29,239 bases of DNA from Stramenopiles sp. TOSAG23-6 (Eukaryota > Sar): the NCBI GenBank assembly GCA_900128565.1, contig LT635972.1, positions 1 through 29,239 of the forward strand, read 5' to 3'. This document shows, in pieces, positions 459 to 29,239 of the stretch. The stretch's first letter is position 1. Every line of letters begins with the position of its first letter. Under the pieces are notes generated by a model that did no database searches, had not been told where the DNA came from, and saw nothing but the letters and a program-made list of their open reading frames with translations. The position numbers and the translations under genes are program-made.

Positions 459-2054
459 ATGGTAGCAGGGTGGTATCAGGATTTACAAACCGTAAATATT
501 CAGACATATAAACTTGATAATGAGGTAACACCAACACCTCGAAGTTCTAGACCGCAATTAGTGCCTAAAACAGCTATTTCAGTTCCACCAAAAATACTTT
601 CCACGAAAAACGCTCAACAGCATTGTTCATATAAATACAAGCCTTCTTACAATAACTTTGATATTTCCACATGGCCTTCAAAAGCACAGGGTTCTGGAAA
701 AAATGGAGTTATAGAAAAAGAGAACAACGCATCTACAATAGCCAATTTGAATATGGAAAACCAGTTTTCAGATGCAGTACCAGAACCTCCAGTGTTCGCG
801 AAAAGTAAAGAAAGTATCTTAAAGTACAATTTGCCTCATAAAACAAATAGTTACCCTCCTCCACCGGAAGGGCATCCACCATCCTCCGCTTTGCGTTTAG
901 AAAAGTTGCAGCTGCATGAAAAAGTACTTTTGTTTAGACGTGGACAAACTCGAAATAATTCGAAAAGTAGAACAGAATTCAGAGGGCGGAAGGCAATGAT
1001 GCGACTCAGAAGAGACAGAGAAAATAATCGTTTAAAACATCTGGCAATACAAATGAAGAAAAAGGATAAAATACAGCGTATGCAGCTTGCTAAAAAACAA
1101 CCAAGAATGGGAGATTTAAAAAAACTCCGAGCAAACCAAATAATAACCTTTTGTCGCAAGAAATATTCTGTTAGAGAAAATGATATTTCTCAGCATTCTG
1201 CTGTAGATGGAGAGCGGAATGTATCTGATATGGATAAAAGGGAAAGGTATAAGCGAGATAATAACAGTGTTGCAAAATCCGATGAAAGCAAAAGTAATTG
1301 TGTGAGAAATAAGAAATCTTATGAAAGCAAAAGTAATTGTGTGAGAAATAAGAAAAAGGGAATGAATAGGAGTGATTGTACCGAAAAACCTGATAAATTT
1401 AAGGATGTAAAAATAAGAAAAACGGAAAAGAATAGGAATAATGCTATTCATCGTGTTGCCTTCTTGGAAAATGAATTGCGCCAGGCAAAAACAGATGCTA
1501 TCGATTTTGCTAAGCGTGCTGCAGAAGATGCTACAAAACTTCGCAAGACAATAGTACAACTTCAAACAGAGAATGTTCATTTACGCTGCCAATTAGAAGC
1601 ATGTATGTTTTGTTTTTTTTCAAATTCCATTTTTTGTTCGTACGAAATTTTGTACCTAACGATTTTTTTTGAAATATTTTTCCAAAATACATTATTATCA
1701 CAGAAAGGCAAGTACGAAAAGTGTAATAACCGTTCATTAGAACAAAACAAAAATACAAATATTTCTATTAATGGAAAAATAGTAAGTAAAATATCTGATC
1801 ACAAGACAAAAATATCAAAAGGAGAAAAAGTACAAAGTCAAGAATGTTGCACCACTGAAAGTAATGTAGATAGTAAATTTCAAACAGCTGTATCGATAGC
1901 CCGTGCAGAAGTAAAGCTGCAACTCGAAGAATTGAGTCAAAGTGTGAATTTTGAGAAGAAAAACTATTTTGAGAAGAGTATTTCTGAAAACATTCCAAAT
2001 TCTTTATCGTCTTTATCAATTCACCCGTCAAGAAATGCCCCAACTATTCATTAG
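459..2054 (+). CDS. Basic coiled-coil protein of unknown function, two exons
   Basis: I do not recognise the family. The frame is open from the ATG at 459 to the stop at 2052-2054 and would also be open through the intron. Exon 1 is 459-1602; exon 2 starts at about 1690 (or 1693), giving roughly 502 residues. The protein has a Pro/Ser-rich N-terminus, a very basic stretch around residues 165-220 (arginine-rich, RRDRENNR), and a predicted coiled coil just before the intron with heptad-like Leu/Ile in the segment LRKTIVQLQTENVHLRCQLE. A 13-residue unit (ESKSNCVRNKK plus two residues) is repeated in tandem. The Arg-rich plus coiled-coil arrangement recalls bZIP-like or cytoskeletal proteins, but I see no diagnostic motif. 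The intron is a member of the repeat family described separately. The stop lies inside a 42-bp tandem repeat, so the C-terminus may vary. Confidence 0.75.
   Translation: MVAGWYQDLQTVNIQTYKLDNEVTPTPRSSRPQLVPKTAISVPPKILSTKNAQQHCSYKYKPSYNNFDISTWPSKAQGSGKNGVIEKENNASTIANLNMENQFSDAVPEPPVFAKSKESILKYNLPHKTNSYPPPPEGHPPSSALRLEKLQLHEKVLLFRRGQTRNNSKSRTEFRGRKAMMRLRRDRENNRLKHLAIQMKKKDKIQRMQLAKKQPRMGDLKKLRANQIITFCRKKYSVRENDISQHSAVDGERNVSDMDKRERYKRDNNSVAKSDESKSNCVRNKKSYESKSNCVRNKKKGMNRSDCTEKPDKFKDVKIRKTEKNRNNAIHRVAFLENELRQAKTDAIDFAKRAAEDATKLRKTIVQLQTENVHLRCQLEACMFCFFSNSIFCSYEILYLTIFFEIFFQNTLLSQKGKYEKCNNRSLEQNKNTNISINGKIVSKISDHKTKISKGEKVQSQECCTTESNVDSKFQTAVSIARAEVKLQLEELSQSVNFEKKNYFEKSISENIPNSLSSLSIHPSRNAPTIH
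1284..1361 (+). repeat. 39-bp tandem duplication within the coding region
   Basis: Two nearly identical units beginning GAAAGCAAAAGTAATTG start at 1284 and 1323. The period is 39 bp, so each unit adds 13 codons without changing frame. Confidence 0.85.
1603..1689 (+). other. Introner-family intron, copy 1
   Basis: The 5' end is GTATGTTTTG at 1603. The palindrome TTCGTACGAA is at 1637-1646 and the branch-point-like TACCTAAC at 1653-1660. A T-rich run follows, then GAAATATTTTTCCAAAATA ending at 1689. Cutting here removes 87 nt and keeps the frame, joining GCA T|CA TTA TTA. A cut three bases later, after CAT (1692), is equally in frame. The nearest AG (1703) would produce an immediate TAA. An AG at 1707 is in frame (105 nt), so a canonical GT-AG reading is not excluded for this copy alone. 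Confidence 0.75.
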
Positions 2055-2158
2055 AAAAAGTAGAAATTATCAAGAAATGCCCTGAAGTATTCATTAGAAA
2101 AGGTAGAAATTATCGAGAAATGCCCTGAAGTATTCATTAGAAAAGGTAGAAATTGTAC
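2031..2158 (+). repeat. 42/43-bp tandem repeat, three copies, over the stop codon and 3' region
   Basis: Units beginning AGAAATGCCC start at 2031, 2073 and 2116 (periods 42 and 43) and contain TATTCATTAGAAAA. The stop codon of the upstream gene lies in the first unit. The rest of the 2055-2385 gap is AT-rich with no further gene; the neighbouring genes converge, so it probably holds two 3' UTRs. Confidence 0.9.
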
Positions 2159-2385
2159 CAATATAATTAAAAATCGCAGTAAAATTGTTTATAAAATTTT
2201 TTTGATCATTCTTCAATACAAGAGAAAACTATTTAAGGAATTCGAAGTAGCTTCATATATAGTACAGTACATGTGCTGTATGTAATATATATATGTACAA
2301 AAACAGTGTCATAGGGTAGGATTTAGTTAGAATATTTATTATCAATTTTAACTTGTGATTGAAATTTTCTAAAAATATTTTTTGT

Positions 2386-3684
2386 TTAGTTAGGATTTTG
2401 ATTTTCAAGGCTAAGATCATTCATTCCACCAGGGGCGAGAAGACCCAAAATTCCATCGCCTGTTTCACCAGTAATAACCATGTTACTGTTTTTGGCAATT
2501 CCAGTAAGCACATCAAGTCTCAAATTCTGTACTTCAAACTCTCTAACATCGGCTAACTGGGTAGCTGCAGACTTTTCAATATTCGCATCCAGTTCGATTA
2601 TTTTTGCTTTTTTCTTAGCCACGTCAACACCTGCCTCTGCAAGAACAAATCGACTTTGATAATTTTGTTCGGCTGTCACTTTGCGAGCGTCACAAGTAGC
2701 TCGCGTACGTTCTACAACCTTTGTCGCATCACGTTTGCCATCTTGTGTAGCAACAGATACTTTCGATTGCGCCTCTACAATAGCTACTTCCGTTCGACTT
2801 GACTCATTTACTATACAAACATCACGATGATTCAATGCAGCTGTAAGTCTTTCCTCTCGATTAATAATTGCTCTTTCAGTCTCCGCAGTTAGATCCTGAA
2901 CAGATCGTTTATTTTCTTTCATAATTTGTTCAAGTCGTTGAGCAGCATCGTCATTGACTTTTCGCATTTCAGCAGTGTGTTTCTTCTCCTGTTGTTCCAT
3001 TTGTGTTTCAAATGATGTTCGTGACTGGAGAGTGGCTTCAAGACTTGCTGGGAGTTGTACATTAGTGATCTTTACATTTTTGATTTCAACACCATAAGGT
3101 TTCATAGTTCTATTCAACCCACCTTTCATCCCTAAAGCAAACTCTTCTCTCAAATCAAGAACTTTCATCACAGGAACCCGATTAACCAGTGCACGGATTG
3201 CTTCTTCAACTTCTGCGGACAACAATTCGTCAAAATTACATGCCCCGAGGTGATAAATAAACTTCTTTGCGTCCTCAATTTTTGGTCCAATTTGGAAAGT
3301 TAAACCAAGGTCAACTTCGACCATAACGTTATCAATTGTTGGACAATTCGCTACAGGATGATTGTATGATATTCCCTTACGTGTAACAATGTGTGAAACA
3401 CGATAATACCCAGGCCAGCAACAAATAAAACCAGTCGGCGCCTCACCCTGATCTTTAAACCATTTTTGGTGCAAGACCCAATAGCCAGAAGGTATTGTGA
3501 TACACGTGTTACAACACCAACCGGAAGTTGGTACAAGAACAATAGGCTGCTCGTTGTTGTTCTCAGCTCTGGCAAATACAGCAGCTGCTTCACCCACTGA
3601 TGATATATGCTTCTGAACAACACGTGATTTAACCTTTCTACGGGACATTGTTTCGCAAAACAAAATTAAAGAAAAAGCGCGCAA
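2386..3684 (-). CDS. SPFH/band-7 (prohibitin-homology) domain protein
   Basis: This is a 432-residue protein if started at 3684; a second ATG at 3648 (MSRRKVKSR) would give 420 and may be the real start, since the first 12 residues look unlike the rest. The middle fits an SPFH/band-7 fold: a beta-rich region (TNVMVEVDLGLTFQIG-like) is followed by EEAIRALVNRVPVMKVLDLR and the typical phrase YGVEIKNVKITNVQLP near residues 205-220. After it comes a long Ala/Glu/Lys/Arg-rich helix (about 220-390), as in flotillins and stomatin-like proteins, where it drives oligomerisation. The C-terminus is Gly/Asn-rich. No clear membrane span is seen, so attachment could be by acylation; Cys residues lie near the N-terminal CCNTC. 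The likely role is membrane microdomain scaffolding, inferred from the family only. Confidence 0.85.
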   Translation of the reverse strand: MRAFSLILFCETMSRRKVKSRVVQKHISSVGEAAAVFARAENNNEQPIVLVPTSGWCCNTCITIPSGYWVLHQKWFKDQGEAPTGFICCWPGYYRVSHIVTRKGISYNHPVANCPTIDNVMVEVDLGLTFQIGPKIEDAKKFIYHLGACNFDELLSAEVEEAIRALVNRVPVMKVLDLREEFALGMKGGLNRTMKPYGVEIKNVKITNVQLPASLEATLQSRTSFETQMEQQEKKHTAEMRKVNDDAAQRLEQIMKENKRSVQDLTAETERAIINREERLTAALNHRDVCIVNESSRTEVAIVEAQSKVSVATQDGKRDATKVVERTRATCDARKVTAEQNYQSRFVLAEAGVDVAKKKAKIIELDANIEKSAATQLADVREFEVQNLRLDVLTGIAKNSNMVITGETGDGILGLLAPGGMNDLSLENQNPN

Positions 3685-3754
3685 GAAAGTAAATACAGTA
3701 ACAATAAGTTCACAACATTTTGGCCAAAAAAAAAGTTTTGGACAGTCTTTATAA

Positions 3755-3760
3755 CACGTG
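3755..3760. promoter_or_regulatory. CACGTG (E-box/G-box) upstream of the band-7 gene
   Basis: A CACGTG palindrome lies about 70-110 bp upstream of the two candidate start codons of the minus-strand band-7 gene. Such boxes bind bHLH or bZIP factors in many eukaryotes; function here is inferred from position only. Confidence 0.3.
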
Positions 3761-3944
3761 GCAATCTAAATCATCTCACCGATTATTCATTTTTCTAACA
3801 CGAAATCTATTAAATAAGGTCAATAATCGAAGTTAAAAAACGAGTTTATTATATATTTTTTCCTGAAAAAAATGACGTTGTATCACAATATCATTGAATG
3901 TAAGAATTCATCAATGGTAAATATTTTCATCATTATTCTTCTTT

Positions 3945-5807: not shown

Positions 5808-6127
5808 TTTATAGAGAGATTGAAAATTTAGTTTATAGCATTTTTATAAAATGAAAAGCTTCGTCTCGCATAATTTTGACATATTTAATCATTAGGGTAT
5901 ACCAAAGCAACTAAAGAACGTTACGAAACGGCACTAGTAGCTACCATATATCCGATATATATATATACGGTACGTACGTACTAGTCAATTTTTGTGCAAT
6001 TTTTGTGTGACGTCATTTTGAATTTTGATGTGATCGATCGAATATATTATAAAAGATTCTCCTTATTCAGATACTCAAGTTGTTAATGTTTTTCTAGAGT
6101 AAAGTAGCGCTAGCATATCATTAAGCT
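5808..6127. promoter_or_regulatory. Divergent promoter region with a CRE-like TGACGTCA palindrome
   Basis: This 320-bp gap separates the divergently transcribed EF-hand and FYVE-START genes and contains no ORF of note. It holds a TATATATATA tract and GTACGTACGTAC near 5955-5981, and a perfect TGACGTCA at about 6007-6014, roughly 115 bp before the FYVE-START ATG. TGACGTCA is the classic CRE/bZIP site; its use here is inferred. Confidence 0.45.
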
Positions 6128-7750
6128 ATGGTAAACACCGAAAATTGGGTCCCGGACGTTGAGCGTTCACATTGTGTTCAATGTGGCATTTTATTTACAT
6201 TATTACGTCGTAAACACCATTGTCGTAAATGTGGTGATATTTTTTGTGCTACGTGTGCATCACGTAGTAAAGTAATTCTATCCGTGTCTAAGTTTGCAGT
6301 TAGGATATGTGATCTTTGCTTTGTAGAGCCTAATAGATTACTGAATAGGGGTACAGAAGATTATAATGATAACACTACTTTGGTGTCGTTTGCACCATCA
6401 AAATTGTCATCAGAGTCATCAAAATTGTCATCAGAGCCATCAAAATTAATTAATTCATCACAAAATTTGGATGAAAATGGAAACCGATATCAAAAGTTAC
6501 TCAAAAAAATCATCCCAAATTTACTAATGAGGTTACAGAGTGACAAAGATTGGTCTTTAGTAGGAGAGACAAATGGAATGAAAACATATCAACCTAAATT
6601 TACTCCTGATGAAAATTTTGCCTGTGCAAAGGGGACTTGTATTTTCGAATGCCCACCACAATTAATATGGGCATCTATTACTGATTTTTCAAAAAATAGA
6701 AATAATTTTGACAAGTCTTTTGATGGGTCAAAACTTATCGAGCAGATAGACGAAGCTACACATGTACGACATATTCTTTCAAAGCCAATTTGGCCTGCGT
6801 ATGGAAGAGATGTTTGTCTCTTGATTAATTCAAGAANGCTTGATAATGATGATACACGTATGCAACCTCTGTTAAGTCTAGGTGTTAGTATTGAGCATAA
6901 TGATTGTCCTCTATCCGAGGACACGAAAGTTCCAGTTTGTGGTGATAGTGGAGCTTCCAACTACGTCCGTTGTGTTTGTGGTCCTGGTGCATGGCTTCTA
7001 ACACCTATTAGATCAAATAACGATACAAAAATTCACACTAAAGCGTCACTAATCATTAATGTAAATCCCGGCGGAAGCCTTCCCACTAGAATAGTCAGAG
7101 CTGCCATTACAAGTCAATTATCAGTGATGCTGAACTTAAAAGAATTACTAAGTAAAGGCAAATTTATGCAGCAATTTCAATCTACAACGTGGCCCCCAAT
7201 GCCATTATATAATCTTGAGAATAAAAAAAAACTTGAAGGAGGTACCACACGGCAAATTCGAAAATCTTTAGGTAAGAAATTTTACGAGAAATGTGATGTG
7301 GATTCATCTTCAAGTTTGCTGGGTGATACCCCCCTCCCACAAAACGAAATTGATTCTTATAATAAACAAGTAGTAGTAACAACTTGTGCGGAAAATGAAA
7401 AAATAATATGTGATGACGCTTGCCAACTGGACACTACTGCAAACATTCAAAATAGCAGAGAAACTATAGCAAAACAATGGAATAATTTTTACTTTGATAA
7501 TTTTCTTGAAAACGTTTCATTAATTAATGTATTAGATACTGTTAGTAATGCCAAACCATATTATGCTGCGTGTTTTGTGATCATACTACCATTATTGTAT
7601 TATGCTTTTGCAGTATATCAAATTATAAGCATTCAAATAGCTTTTTTATGTATATCTTTTGGGTTATTTTGGAAACATTCAGTGGCTATACCGTGTGGTA
7701 CTACGCATTGTCAAATGTCAGGTAAATTAACAAACATTAAAAACAAATAA
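6128..7750 (+). CDS. FYVE zinc finger plus START lipid-binding domain membrane protein
   Basis: The 540-residue protein opens with a FYVE domain (about residues 7-70). It has WVPD, then CVQC, the basic patch RRKHHCRKCG, CATC and a final RICDLC. Together these make the eight zinc ligands and the PI3P-binding signature, with Ile replacing Val in RVC. A linker with repeated KLSSE(S/P)S follows. Residues of about 115-360 match a START-like fold: KIIPNLLMRLQSDKDWSLV, then FECPPQLIWASITDFSKNRN, then KPIWPAYGRDVCLL and a PGGSLPTRIVRAAI end typical of START domains. Two hydrophobic helices near residues 475-520 predict a C-terminal membrane anchor. The likely role is PI3P-dependent endosomal lipid sensing or transfer. 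FYVE-START pairs are common in stramenopiles, which supports but does not prove that affiliation. An ambiguous base at 6837 affects residue 237. Confidence 0.9.
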   Translation: MVNTENWVPDVERSHCVQCGILFTLLRRKHHCRKCGDIFCATCASRSKVILSVSKFAVRICDLCFVEPNRLLNRGTEDYNDNTTLVSFAPSKLSSESSKLSSEPSKLINSSQNLDENGNRYQKLLKKIIPNLLMRLQSDKDWSLVGETNGMKTYQPKFTPDENFACAKGTCIFECPPQLIWASITDFSKNRNNFDKSFDGSKLIEQIDEATHVRHILSKPIWPAYGRDVCLLINSRXLDNDDTRMQPLLSLGVSIEHNDCPLSEDTKVPVCGDSGASNYVRCVCGPGAWLLTPIRSNNDTKIHTKASLIINVNPGGSLPTRIVRAAITSQLSVMLNLKELLSKGKFMQQFQSTTWPPMPLYNLENKKKLEGGTTRQIRKSLGKKFYEKCDVDSSSSLLGDTPLPQNEIDSYNKQVVVTTCAENEKIICDDACQLDTTANIQNSRETIAKQWNNFYFDNFLENVSLINVLDTVSNAKPYYAACFVIILPLLYYAFAVYQIISIQIAFLCISFGLFWKHSVAIPCGTTHCQMSGKLTNIKNK

Positions 7751-7943
7751 ATATCAACTACAGAATTTCGTGTTTTTCGGTTGAGAAAATATAGCAAAAA
7801 CACGAAATCATCAACGAAATCTAAATCGCGATCATATTCGGAGATAAACTTGACCCCTCATCAAAGTCGTCAAGGAGACATTTGCATGATACCATAGAGT
7901 AGACTAAGTAGAGTATCATTGAGTAGTAACATCTAACATAAAA

Positions 7944-8600
7944 ATGGGTTCAGGTGCATCAACCAACCAAAGTAAAAGAACAATGAAAAACTTGGAGAAT
8001 GCGAGAAAATCTAGACGTGTAACCCGGGTGGAAGTAAACATTGAGAATTTAAAGCTAGGAAACGGTTGTTCGGACTCACAAATCGTCGGCACTAAAGTTA
8101 CGGGTAATGCTGCTTCTACAAAACGTCCTGTACTATGCAATGGCATGGTAACAGAGTATCCAATTCGTAGAACTTCGACCGAACGAAAGCGTAGATCTAA
8201 AAATCGAAGGGATTCCATGAGAGTACTGAAAGATGCACACAAACGAGAGTTGGTGGAACAGAAAGTCACATCGAAGTCGGACTTACTCGAAGAAGAAACT
8301 GATGGATATACTAACGATAAAGCTCATACAATTGCAACAACTAGCTTTCCATCACTTGAAGGTGGTGCAAGTCATCCGAAAATAGGGGAGAAAGAACGAG
8401 GTGGATTAAGTTGCTTTCTTGATTGGGCAACAGATGTTGGTAAAGATGCAGGTATATTATGTCGGCATAGTGTGAAGCGTTTATCTAATAGTAGCTCATC
8501 AGGATTAGCTCAAGTTAGAAGACTGTCTACCTCTAGTTTTGAAAAGGTTCGAAGGATGTCTAGTCGGAGAAGCAATCAAAAAATGCATAACTCAACTTGA
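7944..8600 (+). CDS. Small basic protein with predicted N-myristoylation site
   Basis: I do not recognise the family. The 218-residue product begins MGSGASTNQSK, matching the N-myristoylation consensus (Gly2, small residues at 5 and 6). It is rich in Lys/Arg, and the C-terminal 45 residues contain RRLSTSS and RRMSSRRS, which resemble basophilic kinase (PKA/PKC-like) sites. A short hydrophobic/acidic patch SCFLDWATDVGKD lies near residue 155. A myristoyl plus polybasic switch, giving reversible plasma-membrane attachment, is a reasonable inference. It lies about 190 bp downstream of the FYVE-START gene on the same strand, and its stop is about 80 bp from the stop of the converging minus-strand gene. 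Confidence 0.7.
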   Translation: MGSGASTNQSKRTMKNLENARKSRRVTRVEVNIENLKLGNGCSDSQIVGTKVTGNAASTKRPVLCNGMVTEYPIRRTSTERKRRSKNRRDSMRVLKDAHKRELVEQKVTSKSDLLEEETDGYTNDKAHTIATTSFPSLEGGASHPKIGEKERGGLSCFLDWATDVGKDAGILCRHSVKRLSNSSSSGLAQVRRLSTSSFEKVRRMSSRRSNQKMHNST

Positions 8601-8680
8601 ATATATTTATTGAATATAAAGTTTCAATTTTCGTAGGATAAAGTTTCATTATTATCAAAGCACAACCGTCAATTTCTATA

Positions 8681-9475
8681 CTAACGGGAAAGAATTTCTA
8701 ATAATACTGATGTGCGTATTGTCCCAGAGCTTTTTTTAACAACGCTGAACAACCGCCCAGAAGGTATGTCTCTCATTGCGGTTGCTATATGTAGTAAATA
8801 TTCAGTTAACTCCTCATGACTCTTCTCTAAAAAAATATCAAGACTATCACGATTGAAGTGCTCTAATATTCCTCGATTGAAGTATGTTGGATGTTGCGCT
8901 TTTAACTGTAAATATCCTTTTTTGCAGCAGTAAAGTAGAGCGCTGCGTTCGGTAGCAAATACATGGGGAACAAGCTGATTCTCAAAAGCTGTTCCATTGT
9001 CTTTCCACGAAAGGCAGTTTACATGAAATAACGTGTCACACGGGCTAGATTTACTAATGGGCTTACCTACCGTTAAAACCATGCGACTAGCGATTAACGG
9101 GTCAACTCCTTCAAGCATAGGACAATTAAGGTCACTCTTTGGAAGTAAAACACTAGATTTCCGTTTTTTTCTCTCTGGTAGTATTGGAAATGGCAAAGAA
9201 CATTTTTCATCTGCTTTTATCGTTAATGTGTTTTCTATAATGTTCAATTCACGCAAAGGTGGTGAACATGAAGAAGTTGATGATATCGAACGCTCAATAT
9301 TTTCTTCCTTCGAAGAACTAGAAGATTTGCTTCCTCCATCCGCAAACTCACCATTATTTGTCGAAATGCTTGCGTGACTCCTCTTTTTACAAACCCGCCT
9401 AGTTGAAGGAATCATTTTGGCGTCCATGGTACAAAATGAGTTTTCTAAATCCATTTCGTCTTTATCTATTTTCAT
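8681..9475 (-). CDS. Hypothetical protein with conserved-looking C-terminal helical region
   Basis: I do not recognise this 264-residue protein. The first 120 residues are low complexity (Ser- and Glu-rich, with basic KKRSH and ERKKRKSS clusters resembling nuclear localisation signals). From about residue 125 it becomes well ordered: VDPLIASRMVLTVGKP, an FHVNCLSWKDNG segment, then an amphipathic helical region with HPTYFNRGILEHFNRDSL and EELTEYLLHIATAMRDI. The ordered part probably forms one small domain. An internal ATG at 9451 is an alternative start. The upstream neighbour is the divergent HECT gene. Confidence 0.65.
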   Translation of the reverse strand: MKIDKDEMDLENSFCTMDAKMIPSTRRVCKKRSHASISTNNGEFADGGSKSSSSSKEENIERSISSTSSCSPPLRELNIIENTLTIKADEKCSLPFPILPERKKRKSSVLLPKSDLNCPMLEGVDPLIASRMVLTVGKPISKSSPCDTLFHVNCLSWKDNGTAFENQLVPHVFATERSALLYCCKKGYLQLKAQHPTYFNRGILEHFNRDSLDIFLEKSHEELTEYLLHIATAMRDIPSGRLFSVVKKSSGTIRTSVLLEILSR

Positions 9476-9940
9476 TTGATTATGATGATTCTGGTATGAA
9501 AAACTACTGTATTGGTCTTACTATTTTAGCGTATACAATAGTACCTTACAGTATAGTAGACCGTTAGGGTCCTCGCTAACGACTGTCGAGGAACTCAAAA
9601 AAAAATTGCTATTTTAATAAAATTTTTAATGAGATTTCGTGCATAAGATGTCAAAATTTATTAGGTATGAAATTTTGTATACCGAATTATCGGTTACATA
9701 ATATAACAGGCTCATTTCCGGTGGTTTTCTTCTCGCCCGAGGTTCTTCCATGGATGCATTCGATACACACACAGAAAACGTTCAGAATTCTCTCCATCTT
9801 TTTGCTATAAACTTTTGACACAATATAGCAAAATTGATACAGTACTGATAGCTTTTTTCTAGTTAAAGAAGAAAACGGGTTCTGGTTCATCTACAAGAGG
9901 AGAACGCGCTGACAGTGGCGCGGACTCGGAGTCTGGTGAC
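9476..9940. promoter_or_regulatory. Divergent leader of the HECT gene: hairpin, degenerate introner core and possible canonical acceptor
   Basis: This 465-bp gap holds no obvious gene. CGTTAG/CTAACG (9562-9567 with 9576-9581) and TCCTCG/CGAGGA (9570-9575 with 9587-9592) form alternative small hairpins. A degenerate match to the introner core, TATGAAATTTTGTATACCGAA, occurs at about 9666-9686. A pyrimidine-rich acceptor CTTTTTTCTAG ends at 9862. From there the HECT frame is open to the ATG at 9941, encoding Ser/Gly-rich residues without an ATG. The HECT gene may therefore have an upstream exon, with a conventional AG acceptor. Confidence 0.4.
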
Positions 9941-12388
9941 ATGGGAAATCGTGGTAGTCGACGCAGTCGAAATTCCTCTGTATCGACTGCTCGGGATAGT
10001 AATATCCCAGCGAGACTTTCAGGTGTAAATGCCTTCCAAGCAGCGCAAGCTAGAGCACATGCTCAGCATCAGGCTGCCGAATGGAGACAGCGTCATGATG
10101 CTGCGTGTAGTCATAACCAGCCACGACGCCAAGTGGTCGAGACCTCTCCCCAGGTTGTGCATTGTGTACGCTGCCGTCGTGCTCTTATGCCACCGGCAAA
10201 TCATCCACGTTTCCGTTGTCCTTGTGGGCAAATAATGGCAAATCCTTTCATGGTCAATTCGCAACGGGTTAGGTGTCCACGTTGTGCAGGAATTCTAGCT
10301 CCCGTGCCGGGTCTTACACGATTTCGTTGTCCTTGTGGTGCCCTTCTTACTCTTCCATCGGGTGACTTATGGAAGTGTAATATGTGCCAGCATATGAATC
10401 CAGCGCATAGAGCAGGTTGTGAAATGTGTGGCGAAGGTCGATATAGTTCTAGTGATAGTGAAAAAACGAAGGAAGAAGATGAAAAGTATGTTCGTGAGCG
10501 TTCAAGACTTGTGTCTCAAGGCCAACAAGTCTGGATCCGCCGAATGGATAGTACGTTTTCATAATGAATTTCAAATTTTTTTTTTCGTACGAAATTTTGT
10601 ACCTAACAAATTTCGAATTTAATTTTTTTACAAATTTCGAATTTAATTTTTTTTAACAATACATGTGACAATGTGATACGTTGGGCTCGCACGTATGACC
10701 CTGAAAAGTTTGATGAACAAATTGGTAACTTAACTATTCCTACAAATGCTAAGATCAAGGAAGATTTGAAACGGGCAAAAAAGAAGAGTAAAAAGAAAAA
10801 GAACAAAGCAGATAGAATTTGGCAAACGACATTTGTTCGAAGAATGCTGATTATATTAGGAGGAGAAAAGGTTATTGCAGGTTGTTTTGAGCGTGAAGAC
10901 TTTTTAGAAGGTCTTCAGGCATGTGTAGAAGCAATAGGAGATATGTCTGTGAAGGATTTACGGCAAAAACTTACCCAACATTGTGTTGATCATACCAAGT
11001 GTATTGAAAAATCAGAACTCGTGAAAGCTTTACTTGTGAGTGTAACACTAAGAGCATATAAACGAAACGATGGTTGGGTACGTACATTTGTCAGTAAGAC
11101 TACTGAAGGAAAGAAAGTTGCCTCTGATATTAATTGTACTATGGATTGGATACCAGCTAATCAAGCTGAAATCCGATTAAACATTCCTGGTTTGAATATC
11201 AATTTTCAAGAACTAAGGGCAGCAACTTCTTTACCATTCCGACGTAAACTGCAATGGTTCAGACAGCAAGTTGGGCGAATGGGTGTAAGTTGGGCTGCTG
11301 GACATGTCAAAGTTAGGGTGCGAAGAACGCATCTTCTTCAAGATTCATATGACGCTTTCCGAAAGTTGAAACCTATTGATTTTCGTAAAATATTTCAATT
11401 TGAGTTTATTGGTGAACCCGCTCTAGATGCTGGTGGTGTTGCGCGTGAGTGGTTTGCGTTATTAGGACAGTCGATATTCAATGTAGATTTTGGATTATTC
11501 AAATATGGTGATGTTGATAACTTGTGTTACCAGATCAATCCCAATTCTGGTATTGCGAATGATTTACATCTTCAATATTTCCGATTTGCAGGTCGTCTTA
11601 TTGGAAAGTCATTATTCGACCAACAAATTATTCCTGCACATCTTTCTTTACCATTATATAAACATATGTTGGCGTGGCCGATAACTTTAGGAGATTTAGA
11701 ATATGTTGATCAAGAAGTTCGTAGTTCTCTGACTCAGATTTTGAAGTCAGATGATGTTGCAGATTTAATGTTAGACTTTTGCACTACTGTCGAGTCATTT
11801 GGTGAAATTAATGAAATTGAGCTGAAATCTGGCGGAGGTGATTTAGATGTGACAAATGCAAATCGATATGAATATGTAGAATTAATGTTAAAGCACATTA
11901 TGTTGTCACAGACAAAAGACCAATTGTCTCATCTTCTTATAGGATTCTATGAAGTAATTCCTGAAGCTCTAGTAATGATATTTGATTATCAGGAGTTAGA
12001 GCTTTTAATTTGTGGTTTACCTCATATAGATACTGAAGATTGGCAAAATTCTAGTGTATACCGTGGAGTGTTTAATGCCGATCACAAAGTTATTAAATGG
12101 TTTTGGGAAGTAGTCGAGGAAATGAATGAGGAAAAAAGAGCAAGGTTACTTCAATTTGCCACTGGGACTTCCCGGGTCCCAGTACAAGGTTTTAAAAGTT
12201 TACAATCTAATCAGGGGAAAGGTGCTCCATTTTGCTTGAAATCTGTAGCTCGTAAAGGACCAGCTTTTCCTGTGGCACATACGTGTTTCAATAGGATAGA
12301 TTTACCTGAATATAAATCCTTAGAAGAACTGAAGAAATATCTTATGATTGCAATTCAAATGGAAGCTACAGGCTTTGGTCTTGAATGA
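9941..12388 (+). CDS. HECT-type E3 ubiquitin ligase with zinc ribbons and RanBP2-type zinc finger, two exons
   Basis: Exon 1 is 9941-10550; exon 2 starts at about 10662 (or 10665) and runs to 12388, giving about 778 residues. It begins MGNRGSRR, an N-myristoylation consensus. Two LSD1-like zinc ribbons follow (Cys 75, 78, 93, 95 and 112, 115, 130, 132; each CxxC ... FRCPCG), then a RanBP2-type finger (Cys 146, 149, 160, 163; WKCNMCQHMNP). The C-terminal half is a full HECT domain: FEFIGEPALDAGGVAREWF, then YFRFAGRLIGKSLFD, then the C-lobe with catalytic Cys near residue 745 in AHTCFNRIDLPEY and an extended hydrophobic tail (MEATGFGLE). The family transfers ubiquitin from E2 to the catalytic Cys and then to substrate. 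Myristoylation suggests action at a membrane. The intron has no AG acceptor; see the intron entry. Confidence 0.93.
10551..10661 (+). other. Introner-family intron, copy 2 (no AG acceptor available)
   Basis: It starts GTACGTTTTC. TTCGTACGAA is at 10584-10593 and TACCTAAC at 10600-10607. A 24-bp segment beginning ACAAATTTCG is tandemly duplicated (10606-10629 and 10630-10653). The intron ends TTAACAATA at 10661 (or after CAT, 10664). Removing 111 nt (or 114) keeps the frame and yields MD-T-CDNVIRWARTY. There is no AG anywhere from 10561 to 10706, and the frame from about 10664 on looks coding, so a GT-AG reading fails unless a poor GTCTGG donor at 10529 and an AG at 10708 are used. Without the 24-bp duplication the length is 87 nt, identical to copy 1. 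Confidence 0.8.
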
Positions 12389-15043: not shown

Positions 15044-15806
15044 ATGATGGTTGTTCACTTTGACTTCTCCACTAAAATCGGTAACAGTAATACCTGTGTC
15101 AATCTCACTTGTGGGCAGACGACCGAAATTTCATTTGCGTTTCCTGCGGATGCTGTCCAGGCAGACGATAATTCGGGGCCTTGGATAGGCTTGTTTGACG
15201 TCGACGCAGCTGGGACACCAACCACATTAGTGACAAAAGACACCTGGTACCGTGCTACAGTCAAGCGAAGTAGCGGATTTTCTTGGGACGCTAAATATAC
15301 AATTTCGGCACCTGGTCACTACGCTATGGTTTTGGTACCAAGAGGTGGATCAGCTAAATCCCCACTTAGTGTCGTTTGTGTGAACGGTGTCGAAATCAGG
15401 GAGCCGAACACCCGCCCACCCCCCCGAACATCTTCAGATAACGAAAAAATTAAAGCCGCACTTCAGGTTTTGACCAAAGAAAGAATTGGAGATTATTCTG
15501 ACCTAATTAACTTTGGATTTAAAAGCACCGCTGCAAAAGTGGAAGGTGATTTAGTGACTATTTGGGTTGAAGAATGTTATGTATGTTTTATATTTTTTTA
15601 AATCGAATTTTTTTTCGTACGCAATTTTGTACCTAACAATTTTTTTTAGATTTTTCTTGAAATATTTTTCCAAAATAAGAGTCGTAGAAAATGGAAATTG
15701 CACAGCAATCCCAAATGACGACGAGGGAGACTACAATAAGACGCCACCAGATGAATCATTTCAATGGCTGGATAATGCAGGTCGCCTCTGTGAACCTGAA
15801 TTTTAA
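15044..15806 (+). CDS. Small beta-rich protein with SKICH-like pattern, two exons
   Basis: Exon 1 is 15044-15580; exon 2 starts at about 15678 (or 15681) and ends at 15806, giving about 221 residues. The start is ambiguous between two consecutive Met codons. Residues 25-125 look like one beta-sandwich: PWIGLFDVDAAG, a DTWYRATVK strand and APGHYAMVLVPRGG. The GPWIGLF signature and spacing recall SKICH-type or related lipid/partner-binding sandwiches, but only weakly. Exon 2 encodes an acidic Asn/Asp-rich tail ending WLDNAGRLCEPEF. The frame of exon 2 requires an intron length of 3n+1, which the conserved element end gives (97 or 100). The stop codon lies in a 16-bp direct repeat. The exon 2 frame choice rests on amino-acid composition, so it is the least certain part. 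Confidence 0.65.
15581..15677 (+). other. Introner-family intron, copy 3
   Basis: It starts GTATGTTTTA, with TTCGTACGCA at 15614-15623 (one base off the palindrome) and TACCTAAC at 15630-15637, and ends GAAATATTTTTCCAAAATA at 15677. Cutting there joins TGT TAT|AGA GTC GTA GAA in the frame of exon 2; a cut after 15680 is equally in frame. Canonical alternatives exist for this copy: a GTTATG donor at 15576 with AG at 15681 or 15687 is in frame. Confidence 0.7.
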
Positions 15807-15830: not shown

Positions 15831-16232
15831 AGTCGCTTACGTCTTTAGAAAGGTTTATGACAAATCTCATTTTGTAATTTTGGTTTTTACTCCTATATGA
15901 ATCCATACCCTCAAATAGATTATTAGTGATACATAATTTGTATTATAATTGCTTAAATTTATTTTCAAATAAATTACCAAAAATAATCAAATTAGACATT
16001 TTCAAGTTATTCTTTAGTAGCTAATTTTTTAAGTAAAACTTGTTAACCCTAACCCTAACTTGAAAAATTTGAACGCGTCAAAAGTGAAAAAAGTTCCATC
16101 ATCAACATCATCAATTGATCAAGTCCCCAATTCGAGCAACTTCGAGCAACTTCGAGAAGTTGGAACTATATGGATCAGCGACTTTACTTAACGATGATAT
16201 CAACTAAATAACCTCATTTACAGTATTCTACG
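15807..16232. promoter_or_regulatory. Intergenic region with telomere-type tract and 10-bp tandem repeat
   Basis: This 426-bp gap between two plus-strand genes is AT-rich in its first half. It holds TAACCCTAACCCTAAC at 16044-16059 (about 175-190 bp before the next ATG). Two copies of TTCGAGCAAC follow at 16131-16150, then a partial third. CAACTT-CGAG-AAGTTG (16148-16163) can form a small hairpin. No gene is seen. Confidence 0.5.
16044..16059 (-). repeat. Short interstitial telomere-type tract (CCCTAA), copy 1
   Basis: TAACCCTAACCCTAAC amounts to about 2.7 units of CCCTAA. In plants and fungi such telo-boxes act as promoter elements. Here it may be that, or a scar of end joining. Confidence 0.85.
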
Positions 16233-19924: not shown

Positions 19925-20983
19925 ATGAAGGTTGTCAATCGATTTCCTTCTCAGCATGATGACTTCATCCATGATGTTGCGTATGACTTTTATGGAAAAC
20001 GTTTAGCAACTTGTTCTTCTGACCGCACCATTAAAATATGGGAGCAAGTTTGTCAACAAGATGGAAAGAGTAGTGATAATAGAGAAAAAAATACAGATAA
20101 TGGTGGCTGGGTGCTTCAGGCTTCTTGGAAGGCACATACATCATCTGTGTGGCAACTTGCATGGGCTAACCCAGTATTTGGACAGGTGCTCGCTTCATGC
20201 TCATATGATCGCACTGTCACTATATGGGAAGAGCAGGAAGGAATATGTCGTAGTAATGGACAAAGCCAAGTATCGTGGAAACAGAAAGCCCAACTTGTCG
20301 ATAGTAAAGAGTCGGTGAATACAATTGAATTTGCGCCGCGTCATTTAGGATTGAAACTTGCCACTGGTTCTAGTGACGGTTACGTTCGAGTGTATGAAGC
20401 TGGAGATGTTCTAAATCTCTCACACTGGCAACTCCAGGACAAGTTCAGAGTAGAAGATGTCACTGGTGAATGTAATGATAACAATATAGCGTCGAATTCA
20501 AGTAGTGGTGCGAGTAATCATACTTCAAGTACGAGTGGTGGTGTAACATGCCTCTCCTGGTGTCAGCGTAGGTTTGACTCGCCCATGTTAGCCATAGGTA
20601 CCGCCGGAATTTCACCCCCTTGTATTTGGGTTCATAATGCTGAAATAAAAAGATGGCAGCCCGCATTACAATTGACTGGGCATAGTGCAGGAGTAAATGA
20701 TATATCTTGGGCTCCAAGCATGGGCCGCAGCTTTTATTTTATTGCTACTGCATCGAAAGACGAATCAGTTAGAATTTGGAAAGTTGCAAAAGGTAAAATT
20801 GAGGATGAATGGAAGCTTGCTGAAGATGAAAGCTTTGGTCAAGTGTGGCGTGTCGAATGGAATGTTACTGGTACAATGCTTGCTTCATCGGGGGATGATG
20901 GAAGAGTTCGTTTATGGAAACAAAGTCCGAAAGGAGATTGGCGTTGTTGTGACAAAATCACGGCGGGAGAACAACAAGTATAA
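19925..20983 (+). CDS. SEH1: SEH1-type WD40 nucleoporin
   Basis: The 352-residue protein matches SEH1 in length and order. It has HDDFIHDVAYDFYGKRLATC, then SSDRTIKIWE, then SSVWQLAWANPVFGQVLASC, SYDRTVTIWEE, LVDSKESVNTIEFAPRHLGL, SSDGYVRVYEAGDVLNLSHW and finally GQVWRVEWNVTGTMLASSGD-DG. I see six beta-propeller blades, as expected for SEH1 and SEC13, which complete their propeller with a partner blade. SEH1 works in the Y-shaped Nup107-160 complex of the nuclear pore and in the GATOR2/SEA complex. A Ser/Asn-rich insertion (about residues 184-203) between blades three and four is a local feature. Confidence 0.95.
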   Translation: MKVVNRFPSQHDDFIHDVAYDFYGKRLATCSSDRTIKIWEQVCQQDGKSSDNREKNTDNGGWVLQASWKAHTSSVWQLAWANPVFGQVLASCSYDRTVTIWEEQEGICRSNGQSQVSWKQKAQLVDSKESVNTIEFAPRHLGLKLATGSSDGYVRVYEAGDVLNLSHWQLQDKFRVEDVTGECNDNNIASNSSSGASNHTSSTSGGVTCLSWCQRRFDSPMLAIGTAGISPPCIWVHNAEIKRWQPALQLTGHSAGVNDISWAPSMGRSFYFIATASKDESVRIWKVAKGKIEDEWKLAEDESFGQVWRVEWNVTGTMLASSGDDGRVRLWKQSPKGDWRCCDKITAGEQQV

Positions 20984-21318: not shown

Positions 21319-22371
21319 TTATTGGTCATCTGCATCTCTCTTGCGGCTAGCAAGATAAATATCAATATTACTTCTCAATCGTTCCGAAGCATATTCCAGT
21401 TGATCTGAGCCATTACTCGTTACGGCTGCCAATACAACGTCGTAGTTGTCCTGTAGACGTGCTGAAGCAAATTCAAGCGCAGCGTTAAAAAGGATCGATT
21501 TGCCATCATAATCACTGACTGCAGCAAGAACAATGTTGAAATTGTCCCTCAATCGTTCCGAAGCATATTCGAGTGCTGAGCCATCACGCCTTACGACTGC
21601 CAATACAAAGTCGTAGTTGTCCTGTAGAGCTCGTGAAGCATAACAAAGTGCGTTAGGCCGCTCAACAACGATAGATCTCATTAGATTATCATCTTGAAGT
21701 AATGCAGGATGAGCAAATCGAAGGGATGACGGACGATTACACCCAGCCAATATGACAATCTCACGATCTGCGCGTAATTCAGGTGAAGCGTCCTGCAAGT
21801 AATCCCCATCAAAGCCAACAAGACTTCTCACAACTCTTCGATTAGCAAGATATTCACGGGGAATAAGATTAGCAAGATATTGACGGGGAAGAGGCATGAT
21901 GTGACCACGGCCAAAGTTTTGAAAAAAAACAACTTCCCTTGCAGGATAATAAAAACATTCCTCTGGTATTCCATTTACAAACGGATTGACGAAGTGCATA
22001 ATCCCTCGTCGAAGATCCACTGAATCAATTCGCGTTTGTTGAAGACCTCGTAAAAGTTGAAGGCGCTGATTTACCATTCTTGCGTGGATTGGCGTAACAC
22101 AATTCAGTACCTCCTGTGCTCGTACAGCCAAATCATTTGGCGCAAGGCTGTAACGAGCAGCATCATTTGGATTATTTGGATAGAGCATAACATAGAGTAA
22201 ATGAGACCTCACGTTTGCGTCCAACGGATAAGCCACACCAGCGACACGATCAAGAGTATTGTTGTCGACAGCATACTGCAAAGCTGCTCGGTAGTTTCGC
22301 ATTGCTTCAACTTGCATAAGACTGCAAAGAAGTGCCATAATTGTGAGGAGTGTATATTGATTGAACTTCAT
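21319..22371 (-). CDS. Secreted DUF4116-like repeat protein
   Basis: The 350-residue product has an apparent signal peptide (residues 1-23: MKFNQYTLLTIMALLCSLMQ with likely cleavage after VEA). Residues 195-345 hold about four to five repeats of 40-50 residues, each like ALEYASERLRDNFNIVLAAV or LCYASRALQDNYDFVLAVV. That is the DUF4116 pattern (A..L..N.e.vl.AV...g.al.yAs..L). DUF4116 is abundant in some algae and in giant viruses; its function is unknown. The N-terminal third has a different helical pattern. Two repeats are nearly identical in DNA (CGTAGTTGTCCTGTAGA occurs twice), suggesting recent repeat expansion. Confidence 0.75.
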   Translation of the reverse strand: MKFNQYTLLTIMALLCSLMQVEAMRNYRAALQYAVDNNTLDRVAGVAYPLDANVRSHLLYVMLYPNNPNDAARYSLAPNDLAVRAQEVLNCVTPIHARMVNQRLQLLRGLQQTRIDSVDLRRGIMHFVNPFVNGIPEECFYYPAREVVFFQNFGRGHIMPLPRQYLANLIPREYLANRRVVRSLVGFDGDYLQDASPELRADREIVILAGCNRPSSLRFAHPALLQDDNLMRSIVVERPNALCYASRALQDNYDFVLAVVRRDGSALEYASERLRDNFNIVLAAVSDYDGKSILFNAALEFASARLQDNYDVVLAAVTSNGSDQLEYASERLRSNIDIYLASRKRDADDQ

Positions 22372-25686: not shown

Positions 25687-26130
25687 TCAAGAGTTTCCTA
25701 CAACATATTTGCACTTTGTAAGCACTAAAGCAGAATCCCAAACATTTTCTAGCAAAATACTTCCACTTCTACTACCTGTAGATGTCGTCTTTTTCTCCTT
25801 TACAGTAAGAGATTTTTGAAGTTTTAAACCAATAACTGGTCTAGATAGAGAAACGACTTTTCCCTCACATTTTAGCCTTCTGTTCCCAGGTAAGTCGATA
25901 AGAATGTAGGGTGATTCTGTGTGAAGATCGCATAGTGATCCAAAGCATCCTGCAGAAAAAGGAGTCACAGAACCAGGTAAAACAATGAGTAATTTACTTT
26001 TCTTTCGTTGAAGATTTCTTGTGACGTCAAAGCCATCACATGACAATAACGACTGTTTTGGACTCAAAGTATGTGCAGCAGCCGCCCCAGATTTTGGCCT
26101 ATCACCAAACAGTGTTTTTTCAATATCCAT
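25687..26130 (-). CDS. Small beta-rich protein, possibly BIN4-like (topoisomerase VI subunit)
   Basis: The 147-residue product has a disordered N-terminus, then a beta-rich core. KLLIVLPGSVTPFSAGCFG is followed by SPYILIDLPGNRRLKCEGKV and VSLSRPVIGLKLQ, and the end is SILLENVWDSALVLTKCKYVVG. The core order (a DxxG segment, then strands with a G.V.......I....Q pattern, then a buried strand before an acidic loop) reminds me of BIN4/RHL1, which act with topoisomerase VI in plants. The match is by eye and weak, so another small beta-barrel (OB-like) protein is equally possible. The gene is divergent to the 26474 gene. Confidence 0.5.
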   Translation of the reverse strand: MDIEKTLFGDRPKSGAAAAHTLSPKQSLLSCDGFDVTRNLQRKKSKLLIVLPGSVTPFSAGCFGSLCDLHTESPYILIDLPGNRRLKCEGKVVSLSRPVIGLKLQKSLTVKEKKTTSTGSRSGSILLENVWDSALVLTKCKYVVGNS

Positions 26131-26473
26131 GACAATGACTAATGAAGTAAGTATCAGACAGAATAGGTGTTTTGCAGTAGTAATGAAAGATGTTATAATA
26201 ACTTAAAGTAACATTGCTTGTGGTATATTAAGTTGTTGTTTTCAGATTATATTCGGATTTTTCTCAAAAAGATACGACAAATCGAAAAATACGATGTGGT
26301 GTTTGTCGCGNANTTGNAAANTGNAAAAATATTTAATTTCGTGTTTTGNCANGNTTGCGNTTTTTTTTTCNAATCTCATCAATTTAGATTTGATTATNGA
26401 TCGATGATAAAATATNATTGGTGTTATTTTCGAACCTTTTAAAGTGGTAAATTGAGCAAAAGCAATAGTAATC
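26131..26473. promoter_or_regulatory. Divergent promoter containing a cluster of ambiguous bases
   Basis: This 343-bp gap separates the genes at 25687 (-) and 26474 (+). Twelve N calls are scattered over 26311-26416, in contrast with only four in the rest of the window. CGACAAA and TTTGTCG flank a short loop near 26275-26308. Nothing coding is supported. Confidence 0.5.
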
Positions 26474-27578
26474 ATGATGAACGATATTCCTTTTCTTCAA
26501 GTCCATCGTAAAGCTCTTCAAAATGTTCTCACTCATTTGCCTGGAAGTGTGGTAAACCACGAAGTACACCGAAAAAATATGCAAGCTACTCTTGCGACTT
26601 TGCCATGTTCGGAAATGTCAGAAAAAAATAGAGACAAACACAAGTTGAAAGCACAGATGTATCTTTCTAGCATCCAACAAATTAGTAGTCTCAATTTACA
26701 ACCGCGAGATACAAGCAGGATCCACCAAGTTCAAACACTGAATATTTTGCAGAAAGAGTTAGATAAAATGGCTCAGCTCGAGAAGGAAATAGAAAATATG
26801 AAACAGCAACTTGTGGAAAGTAAGTTATTGAATAAGGCTCTCTCCTCTTCAATCGATGAGCAAGCTAAGCGTGTTCAGTGGACGTTTTACCGAATTAAGA
26901 ATTGTATCCCTGATTCTATAGACTCGAATGTTGATGAAAACATAAAGAAAGCGCTTTATGCAAAACCACTTCAACACATGTACTTTTCATCTTCAATTTC
27001 AAATTTATTTATTATTCCAAATTTCGTACCTAACGATTTTTTTTGAATTTCAAATGTAACATATTATTTCGCAACACATGCGTCTTTCAAAAATAACTTG
27101 TTCTTTTCGACCGGCGAGAAGTAGAGGTAGATCAAAGAATGTTTACAATGGAAATAATAATACGTTGCGTTCGTATAATAGTGGTTCAAATTCATACAAT
27201 GGAAATAATAATAGAAATGGTTCAAATTCAGGTTCAAATTCATACAATGGAAATAATCATAGAAATGGTTCAAATTCATACAGCAACAATAATCGAAACT
27301 ACCAAAGTCACCATAAACAAAGATACCAAAATAGTAATAACTTTGATACCAACGAGTTCAATAACGAAAGTCATGATTTTGGACAAAATACTGGAAATAC
27401 TAATTGCACTGCTTCATTAGAGTCCCAGCAAGAGACCGTCAGGCAAAAACTTCGTTCAGCTGCGTTTTCTAGAAACAGTAGCTCATTGCAAATGGCAATA
27501 AATGAAGCACTTAGTTTAGGCATGCATTTTGAAGTTAATCAAGGTAGAAAACAGTTGGCAAGAATACAAGGGTTATGA
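26474..27578 (+). CDS. Coiled-coil / Asn-Gly-rich protein of unknown function, two exons
   Basis: Exon 1 is 26474-26979 and exon 2 27080-27578, giving 334 residues in one open frame. I do not recognise the family. The start has an imperfect internal repeat (VHRKALQNVLTHLPGS, then VHRKNMQATLATLPCS). Residues of about 90-140 form a predicted coiled coil (LQKELDKMAQLEKEIENMKQ). Exon 2 opens with an Arg/Ser-rich segment (RPARSRGRSKN) and then Asn/Gly/Ser repeats (SYNGNNNRNGSNSG), like prion-type or RNA-binding low-complexity regions. The last 50 residues look helical and ordered (RQKLRSAAFSRNSSSLQMAI). The junction is set by the 9-bp duplication flanking the intron. Confidence 0.75.
26980..27079 (+). 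other. Introner-family intron, copy 4, flanked by a 9-bp target site duplication
   Basis: It starts GTACTTTTC, contains the core in shortened form (ATTTCGTACCTAAC, branch-like TACCTAAC at 27027-27034) and ends CAACACAT at 27079. The 9-mer CAACACATG occurs at 26972-26980 and 27072-27080, exactly 100 bp apart. Removing one copy plus the element joins CAA CAC ATG to CGT CTT in frame. No AG occurs from 26981 until 27118. The AG at 27118 would also be in frame but would delete the RLSKITCSFRPA segment and lies about 85 nt after the branch-like site. Confidence 0.85.
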
Positions 27579-27777
27579 AGTATATTTCGTGTATATATTT
27601 CCCAACGACACGATTCAAATGTAAAACGTTTTGAAACAAATTATCAAATGCTTGATTTTGACAGTTTTTTTTAGGTTTCAAGTAAACAATGGAATGTCTT
27701 CTCAACGCAATTTACAATGATAAAGCCTTCCATTTTTCAAAATAAATCAATTAATCATATTTAATTTGTAATTTGTT

Positions 27778-29188
27778 TTATCGAGTAAATATCTTCGCAA
27801 ATGTGTCCTTTAATCGTGCGAGAGACACGTCATTACCTTTATGTTCACATGTTTTAATAAGGTCAATAAATGCACCTTCATCTTTCAATTTAACGCAAAT
27901 ATCAGCAGCTTCAGACCAATAGCCACTCTCCGAGAATAATTCCAATCTAGATGTCACATCCTTCACACGATGTATATATTTTGCAGCTTCTCTTGTGTTT
28001 CCTTTCTTTAAGCATGCATCTGCAAAAGGACGAAATCCAATCGGAGGTCTTTTTTCATTAGAAAAACTTTGTAGCATTTTCCAATCTTCGCATTCTGCTA
28101 ATGCCTTCACTTTCAACTTCCAAAATCGTTTATCTGGTACTGCAAATGTGTTCTTAATAGTCACAGCTTTGGTGTGCTGTGATAAAACAATACAATTATA
28201 AATTGTCTCACACACAGACATATCAATAAAATATGATTCGCCTGTAATCTGTTCCAAATCTTGCTGTATAACTAATAATTTCATTTGTTCTTCTGTTGCT
28301 TTCCAAAGGAATCCAAGTCCTTTATCGCCTTCCTTGTGTCCCGTATAAAACATACCCGATGCAACTTTCATAGCTTTTAATCGATTTTTTATATCTGTCG
28401 ATGCATACGCGTCCTGTATCGTTAATAATCCAGCATCACAATACCGTTTATTATAATAGTATAATTGTTTTAATAACGACTTATCTTGTACTTTACAATA
28501 TTTTACAAGTAAGTCTATTGGTGCAGAAATTATTTTATGGACAGGATGTATTGCAGACGGCCCAGACACAAACCCTACCAAGTCCAAGGGGCCACTCGGT
28601 TTTGATACCAAATGATTCTGATAAGTCTCTAACACTTGAGATGTAGCGAGTGAAATAAGTTTAAAAAACTCTTTTGGATTTCTTCCTTCAGAAGCTACAT
28701 TCTTTTTTATATGCAAAAGTGTCAGATATATTAAATCTGAATCACCTGATTTTGTTGCCTTTTCAAGCGCCAGTTGTTCTTGGTGCATACTAAGAAGCAT
28801 TGGTACCTGGTTCGATGCCTTAGGTTCATATTCAAGTAACATCGTTGCCAATGATCTACGACCTGTACTCTCTGCTACTGCAGCCACTTGAGCAAAATTC
28901 ATTGTCGCCCCCATTGGATTTGTACTAGAAGAGCCCATGTCTTCAGATGATGATGAATTTATGGATACTTTAGACAGTTTTTCGCGAACAGCATTGCATA
29001 AATCAATATCACTCATCGTTGGAGAGCATCTAACTTTTGCTGAGGCCCAATGCACTAAAACACGATTTTTTTTTAAGTTTAAATAATCACACAATTTTAA
29101 AGCGAGAAAGTGTAGATTTCTATTAACAATTCTATTTACAACAACTTCTTCTGTCAGCACATCATATTGAAGCGAAGTGATTGGAATG
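27778..29188 (-). CDS. VPS16: VPS16, C-terminal exon (partial at the 5' end)
   Basis: About 470 codons of the C-terminal part of VPS16, a core subunit of the HOPS and CORVET tethering complexes that act at late endosome/vacuole fusion with VPS11, 18 and 33. The reading matches the family from the first residues: ITSLQYDVLTEEVVVNRIVN, FLALKLCDYLNLK, HWASAKVR, MLLEYEPKASNQVPMLL and GDSDLIYLTLLHIK. The end is also typical: EDWKMLQSFSNEKRPPIGFR, CLKKGNTREAAKYIHRVKD and LKDEGAFIDLIKTCEHKGND. The beta-propeller half is encoded beyond the window. The exon begins at about 29188 (or 29185), right after an introner element. The stop is TAA at 27778-27780. Confidence 0.95.
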
Positions 29189-29239
29189 TATTTTGGAAAA
29201 ATATTTCAAAAAAAAAAACTTAAATTTGTTAGGTACAAA
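29189..29239 (-). other. Introner-family intron in VPS16, copy 5 (3' part only)
   Basis: On the minus strand: TACCTAAC at 29235-29228, a run of 11 T, then GAAATATTTTTCCAAAATA ending at 29189, followed by CATTCC and the VPS16 exon. The 5' part lies outside the window. The only AG between the branch-like site and the exon (in TTTAAG) would be followed by an in-frame TGA before the VPS16 frame begins, so no AG acceptor is usable. The next AG (before EEVVV) would delete the conserved ITSLQYDVLT. Confidence 0.85.

Follow-up and report, generated by a model that had tools for sequence, protein, structure and literature searches.

An introner family with a putative AT acceptor in the genome of an uncultured stramenopile

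Introners and non-canonical introns are already known from several lineages, including Amoebophrya, Fritillaria, hemistasiids and Euglena. The introners of Micromonas, Aureococcus and Florenciella are described as carrying or co-opting GY/AG splice sites, with target-site duplications of 3–9 bp (PMC9860276). Introner elements of Amoebophrya are reported to have no clear terminal dinucleotides, and to be bordered by inverted repeats of 8–20 nt and direct repeats of 3–5 nt (PMC7789003). In Fritillaria, the U2 spliceosome is reported to accept 3' AT ends (44% of F. pellucida and 34% of F. borealis introns) as well as AC ends; introner transposons are named there as a possible intron source, and U2AF duplicates are implicated (PMC13326754). 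In hemistasiid diplonemids, most introns are described as breaking the GT-AG rule with the spliceosome kept, and the median intron length in Namystynia is given as 91 nt (PMC12621601). Here we analysed a stretch of 29,239 nt from Stramenopiles sp. TOSAG23-6 (the window; contig C22 of an assembly of 8.03 Mb in 408 contigs), in which five genes carry copies of one short element. Window positions refer to the whole stretch.

We consider it highly likely, judging from the sequence, that these elements are introners that were copied into coding sequence and are removed from pre-mRNA as GT-AT introns, most likely by the U2-type spliceosome. In the proposed mechanism, a short mobile DNA element would insert into coding sequence and become an intron, and its copying into genes would leave a direct repeat of about 2 bp, mostly AT, at the borders. 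Each insertion would then be cut from the pre-mRNA. The most probable agent is the ordinary U2-type spliceosome, which would use the canonical 5' site /GTAYGT and the CTAAC branch point together with an unusual acceptor, AATACAT/, about 32–48 nt past the branch point, giving GT-AT rather than GT-AG introns (a slash marks a junction).

The original prediction held that five introns of the window are copies of one element, and all five were found where it had placed them. GTACCTAAC is common to all five copies, and GAAATATTTTTCCAAAATA is present in copies 1, 3 and 5, as proposed. A GTAYGTTTT start is seen in copies 1–3, copy 4 starts with GTACTTTTC, and the start of copy 5 is lost at the contig end. 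Copies 1 and 2 contain TTCGTACGAA exactly, copy 3 has TTCGTACGCA, copy 4 lacks the motif, and it falls outside the visible part of copy 5. The 3' boundaries had to be corrected, the ends lying 3 nt further downstream than predicted, at a non-AG end. Copy 1 (1603–1692, plus strand; GTATGT...AATACAT) is thus 90 nt long and not 87 nt; its boundary follows from the family rule and the frame, and it is 97% identical to its next-best copy. Copy 2 (10551–10664, plus strand) does contain the predicted 24-bp internal duplication, but its length is 114 nt, not 111 nt. Copy 3 (15581–15680, plus strand; 100 nt) has a 3' end altered to AATAAGA. Copy 4 (26980–27079, plus strand; 100 nt) is diverged and ends in ACACAT, and only the 3' part of copy 5 (29186–29239, minus strand) is present, the contig end truncating the element. 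A branch-point-like CTAAC lies at 1656–1660 in copy 1 (the strict pattern match described below ends at 1660), at 10603–10607 in copy 2 and at 15633–15637 in copy 3, both also strict pattern matches, and at 27030–27034 in copy 4, where it was read directly from the sequence.

The family is abundant in the assembly. A strict pattern covering the 5' two thirds of the element, GTAYGTTTTN{25,55}TTTTGTACCTAAC, had 787 matches in the 8.0-Mb assembly (398 and 389 on the two strands), and the reversed pattern had none in the same assembly. A DNA search with copy 1 gave at least 41 matches, with 40 of 1460 first-look candidates scored. A hidden Markov model (HMM) started from 21 seeds recognised 103 elements in about 240 kb scanned, a count that leaves aside two stretches, L001 because it duplicates the window and L022 because it is nearly the same as L021, and that includes L002–L008 although these stretches had been chosen as matches. 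The sample without L002–L008 (218,364 bases: the window plus 19 stretches, none longer than 10 kb) held 79 HMM and 28 strict elements. Scaling from either sample count suggests roughly 2,000–3,000 elements in the whole 8-Mb assembly, a total that is only approximate because some contigs are near-duplicates (C13/C14) or mirrored (C2). The likeness among copies therefore goes far beyond runs of T, as had been claimed from the window, and the whole-genome search proposed with that claim returned many hundreds of further copies, so scarcity does not count against it. Some copies look recent: across 51 aligned copies, the identity to the nearest neighbour is 83% at the median and reaches 98%. The 52 listed copies have different flanking exons, and similar introns thus stand in unrelated places. 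Composite introners were also seen, one with two cores (L021, reverse complement 9466–9637) and one with two alternative 3' ends (C28:3331–3436), which suggests tandem duplication of element parts; at L007:1366–1592, a 39-nt exon lies between two introners. As to the assembly itself, L021 and L022 (contigs C13 and C14) are 99.99% identical over 9,998 nt and are redundant. Contig C2 has mirrored element positions, and the window has at its contig end (1–255) a 109-nt inverted repeat, 93% complementary, with a 37-nt spacer; both look like whole-genome-amplification chimeras.

Intron behaviour was examined in 52 of the 103 HMM elements, those matching the model nearly end to end. The longer open frames lay on the sense strand of the element in all 52, compared with 48.8% of random positions (n = 5000), so the full-length copies are not mostly outside genes, an outcome that would have spoken against the original prediction. 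The uniform orientation also bears on removal at the DNA level in another nucleus or life stage, as for the internal eliminated sequences of ciliates. Those sequences are not known to have a strand preference relative to genes, and a cut in DNA does not need one, whereas all 52 full-length copies here are in sense. Precise excision restoring a 2-bp repeat would resemble elimination of the transposase type; however, the motifs resembling a 5' site and a branch point are conserved and protein similarity places the host among the stramenopiles, and we regard DNA elimination as very improbable.

Removal as introns would restore the reading frames in most clear cases. A clear single frame on both flanks was present in 38 of the 52 copies, and cutting from GTAYG through the second base after AATAC joined the flanking frames in 34 of these 38 (random-position control: 726 of 2190 clear positions). 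The lengths of the 34 frame-joining copies modulo 3 were spread over 13, 13 and 8, and 23 of them contained an in-frame stop. In a 2.67-kb stretch of L021 (reverse complement 7230–9899), removal of 10 elements, with ends set by motif, left one frame free of stops over 522 codons, with 59 and 30 stops in the other two; unspliced, the three frames had 38, 31 and 61 stops. A Pfam search with the resulting 522-aa protein found 0 families.

In the window, an open frame requires excision of copies 2, 3 and 4, while the frame happens to stay open through copy 1. Copy 1 lies in a gene of unknown function (459–2054, plus strand, from the list of open reading frames (ORFs); 501 aa spliced). Copy 2 lies in a HECT ubiquitin ligase gene (9941–12388, plus strand; PF00632, E = 5.1e-91), whose frame hits a stop after 207 aa when unspliced; the spliced protein of 777 aa is 70% identical over 100% to the relative P0165. 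Excision of copy 3 restores the frame of its gene (15044–15806, plus strand; 220 aa spliced), and a Pfam search with the first exon of this gene gave no match. The gene with copy 4 (26474–27578, plus strand) has a 334-aa ORF when spliced and a stop after 190 aa when not. Copy 5 lies in a VPS16 gene, of which the exon downstream of the element (27778–29185, minus strand) encodes Vps16_C (PF04840, E = 7.5e-62). Several of the 13 genes that the original prediction called intronless are single uninterrupted ORFs with Pfam matches, and an Rfam gathering-threshold scan of the whole window gave 0 hits.

Nearly all introns use a 3' AG, one of the best-conserved signals in eukaryotic genes. The elements, with the layout GTAYGT...CTAAC...AATACAT/, lack it. 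Homologous proteins place the predicted junction to the residue. No gap was found at the adenosine deaminase junction LAIH/VGEVP against 6iv5, at the asparaginase junction FTGA/FIP against 8uoo, or at the coronin junction GWC/MMPKR against 7sty or the metagenomic relative P0121 (71% identical), and the HECT junction of copy 2, RRMD/SDNVIRWAR, is identical in P0165, again with no gap. The flanks of copy 2 are unequal (GGATA/ and ACAT/), so the splice register can be tested there. The GT...AT register yields RRMDSDNVIRWAR (RMDSDN), as in the nearest relative P0165, and alternative registers yield RMDCDN and RMECDN, while the 111-nt intron first proposed would give RMDTCDN. RMECDN is argued against because the D is constant in P0165–P0169; the more distant homologs P0170, P0172, P0173 and P0176 are more variable at the junction.

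The elements could instead be ordinary GT-AG introners that use an AG in the element tail or in the downstream exon. Their 5' site and branch motif are canonical, and 13 of the 51 copies with a recognisable branch motif have a YAG located 5 nt or more beyond it. In one of the 13 (L008:208) this YAG is the very end of the element. In the other 12 (one of which, L014:9895, is truncated by the contig end), it lies 5–35 nt ahead of the inferred end, but for 10 of them the leftover length is not a multiple of 3, so that its use would shift the frame. In window copy 3, TTTTTTTTAG ends 31 nt upstream of the inferred 3' end and is out of frame. In the adenosine deaminase gene, TTTTCTTACAG stands 5 nt ahead of the intron end and homology indicates that it is not used. 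Use of the first AG past the branch motif of copy 2, which ends 44 nt into the exon, would lead to an early stop, and the homologs are gap-free at AATACAT/. From the branch A to the intron end there are 32–48 nt, and the YAGs inside the element tail are, by the frames and homologs, passed over. In the whole assembly, GTAYGTTTT...GTACCTAAC...AATACN was followed by a pyrimidine in 624 matches and by a purine in 34 (total 658; reversed controls 0). These counts include a few places twice and some purine matches that fall inside longer tails, and they miss copies whose AATAC is altered, window copy 3 among them. An AG end is thus possible for about 5% at most of the copies seen, and we regard splicing at AG as very unlikely. 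The reading of the original prediction, that the elements spread by copying and reside in genes as introns, is supported by their abundance, by the sense orientation of 52/52 copies, by the frames joined in 34/38 and by the gap-free junctions; GT-AT removal fits these junctions best.

A further alternative is structure-guided removal without a spliceosome, as discussed for the non-canonical introns of euglenids, hemistasiids and Amoebophrya. Pairing of about 4 bp (GUAU/AUAC) is possible between the element ends, and at least 4 end pairs occurred in 51% of 51 copies compared with 14% of shuffles, but this pairing may merely reflect the terminal inverted repeat. Nonconventional introns of euglenids and diplonemids have stable end pairing and no U1-like 5' site; here, GTAYGT is conserved, and the consensus fold of 25 aligned copies had an energy of −0.06 kcal/mol and 0 compensatory pairs. 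Because these 25 copies have no consensus fold, the elements are not classed as structure-guided nonconventional introns. The CTAAC motif is conserved across the same alignment and, with GTAYGT, fits a spliceosome. Structure-guided removal is accordingly judged quite unlikely, and removal by the spliceosome remains the preferred reading.

The borders of the elements point to how they may have spread. In 42 of 52 copies, the element ends in the same two bases as the upstream exon (29.7 in shuffled data; reached in 0 of 2000 shuffles), and three bases match in 18 of 52 (12.3 expected; reached in 5 of 2000). The matched 2-base repeats were AT (35), CT, AC, GT (two) and TT (three). Because the last two bases of the intron usually repeat those of the exon, excision would usually restore the pre-insertion sequence. 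The termini ATGTA/TACAT form a short inverted repeat of about 5 nt. The 2-nt repeat looks like a 2-bp target-site duplication, too short for certainty, and target preference is an alternative; transposition would be the copying route on the former view. A Tc1-like DDE_3 transposase ORF of 426 aa was found at L029:793–2073 (contig C298). Its region is single in the assembly save for a 113-bp piece on the same contig, and has no repeated or element-related ends.

Several observations weigh against GT-AT introners spread by transposition. Four of the 38 clear frames misfit; three of these (L007:1366, L014:9663 and L018:5363) are closely followed by another element, and the fourth, L003:1501, lies beside a run of A and is unexplained. 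Ten of the 52 copies have no 2-base repeat, and the one-base match (44 of 52; 41.8 expected) is not significant. The RMDCDN register of copy 2 is one residue from the RMDSDN of P0165, and among the homologs there was no spliced protein of the same species, the best being 68% and 70% identical. No autonomous partner element was found in the partial assembly, with DDE_3 as the sole transposase family searched. U2AF1, U2 and U6 were not found either, which carries little weight with a partial assembly and no positive control.

A component of the spliceosome does exist in the host, since a Prp8 gene is present. It has an open frame of 2021 codons with a PROCN domain, which ends at unread bases before the C-terminal part and is adjoined by a 454-aa ORF. 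A 236-residue segment aligned to human Prp8 over 235 residues with no gaps and few differences.

The host probably belongs to MAST-3F rather than MAST-3A, an uncultured stramenopile lineage, on the basis of protein similarity and a database label. The SEH1 protein of the window is the EukProt protein GSMAST32.ASY1.ANO1.614.1 except for five missing in-frame pieces and 3 mismatches; the label of this entry points to a Genoscope MAST-3 single-cell assembly. The next-best matches were to proteins from EukProt and metagenomes and to those of oomycetes and other stramenopiles. In the SEH1 gene (19925–20983), five pieces encoded in frame by the DNA are absent from the public model P0001, probably because the annotation contains false introns. 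According to the original annotators, too few complete proteins had a match in the MAST-3F assembly for their gene finder to be trained on it (PMC5778133). Non-AG introns may help to explain poor gene models in this lineage, such as that of SEH1. Elsewhere in the window, 21319–22371 (minus strand) encodes a protein with five DUF4116 stretches, and TAACCCTAACCCTAAC, a telomere-like repeat within the contig, lies at about 16044–16059.

Introns other than introners were also sought. A frame-switch scan, in which 24 of 138 gaps held an introner and most of the others listed resembled shadow ORFs, was dropped as too noisy, and a motif-plus-frame scan of the roughly 240 kb was used in its place. It gave 15 candidates for a 5' site, several of which are diverged or neighbouring introners and three of which have an in-frame YAG option. 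No convincing GT-YAG intron was found among the 15, which is weak evidence of absence. We hold the case to be evenly balanced for a broader proposal, in which a transposon-like family supplied essentially all recognisable introns and shifted the acceptor signal of the genome from AG to AT, with real YAGs ignored. If this is true, the splicing code would have changed wholesale in connection with an introner invasion. A large, uniform and still-recognisable family that departs from the canonical pattern at its AT acceptor, with a normal 5' site and branch motif, would isolate the acceptor step of splicing. It would also suggest an ability of mobile elements to alter splice rules.

No literature was found on introns or splice sites of MAST-3, and none of the titles and abstracts listed connected MAST-3 with non-AG introners, in a search that lay outside most subscription papers and all preprints, and MAST is not mentioned in the main text of the introner survey PMC9860276. 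What appears to be new relative to the literature searched is the combination, in a stramenopile, of one recognisable introner family, a canonical 5' site and branch motif, and a fixed AATACAT acceptor. As described for the introners of Micromonas, Aureococcus and Florenciella, one repeat family gives many introns in unrelated genes with short direct repeats, and protein length is usually unchanged; unlike in those introners, the acceptor is non-AG and the repeat is about 2 bp (PMC9860276). Like the Amoebophrya introns in the published account (PMC7789003), the elements occur in a marine protist and show transposon-like spread, direct repeats at the borders and ends other than GT-AG; here, however, GTAYGT, CTAAC and AATACAT are fixed, the inverted repeat is about 5 nt and the direct repeat 2 nt. 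Hemistasiid introns are similar in length and also break GT-AG, but are described as having no strong terminal motifs and extensive end pairing, whereas the present elements have conserved motifs and no shared fold (PMC12621601). The non-canonical introns of Fritillaria share the 3' AT end; the major non-canonical classes reported for F. borealis start with AG, in contrast to the canonical GT here (PMC13326754). Fritillaria is also an animal, while the host here is a stramenopile whose introns form one recognisable repeat family.

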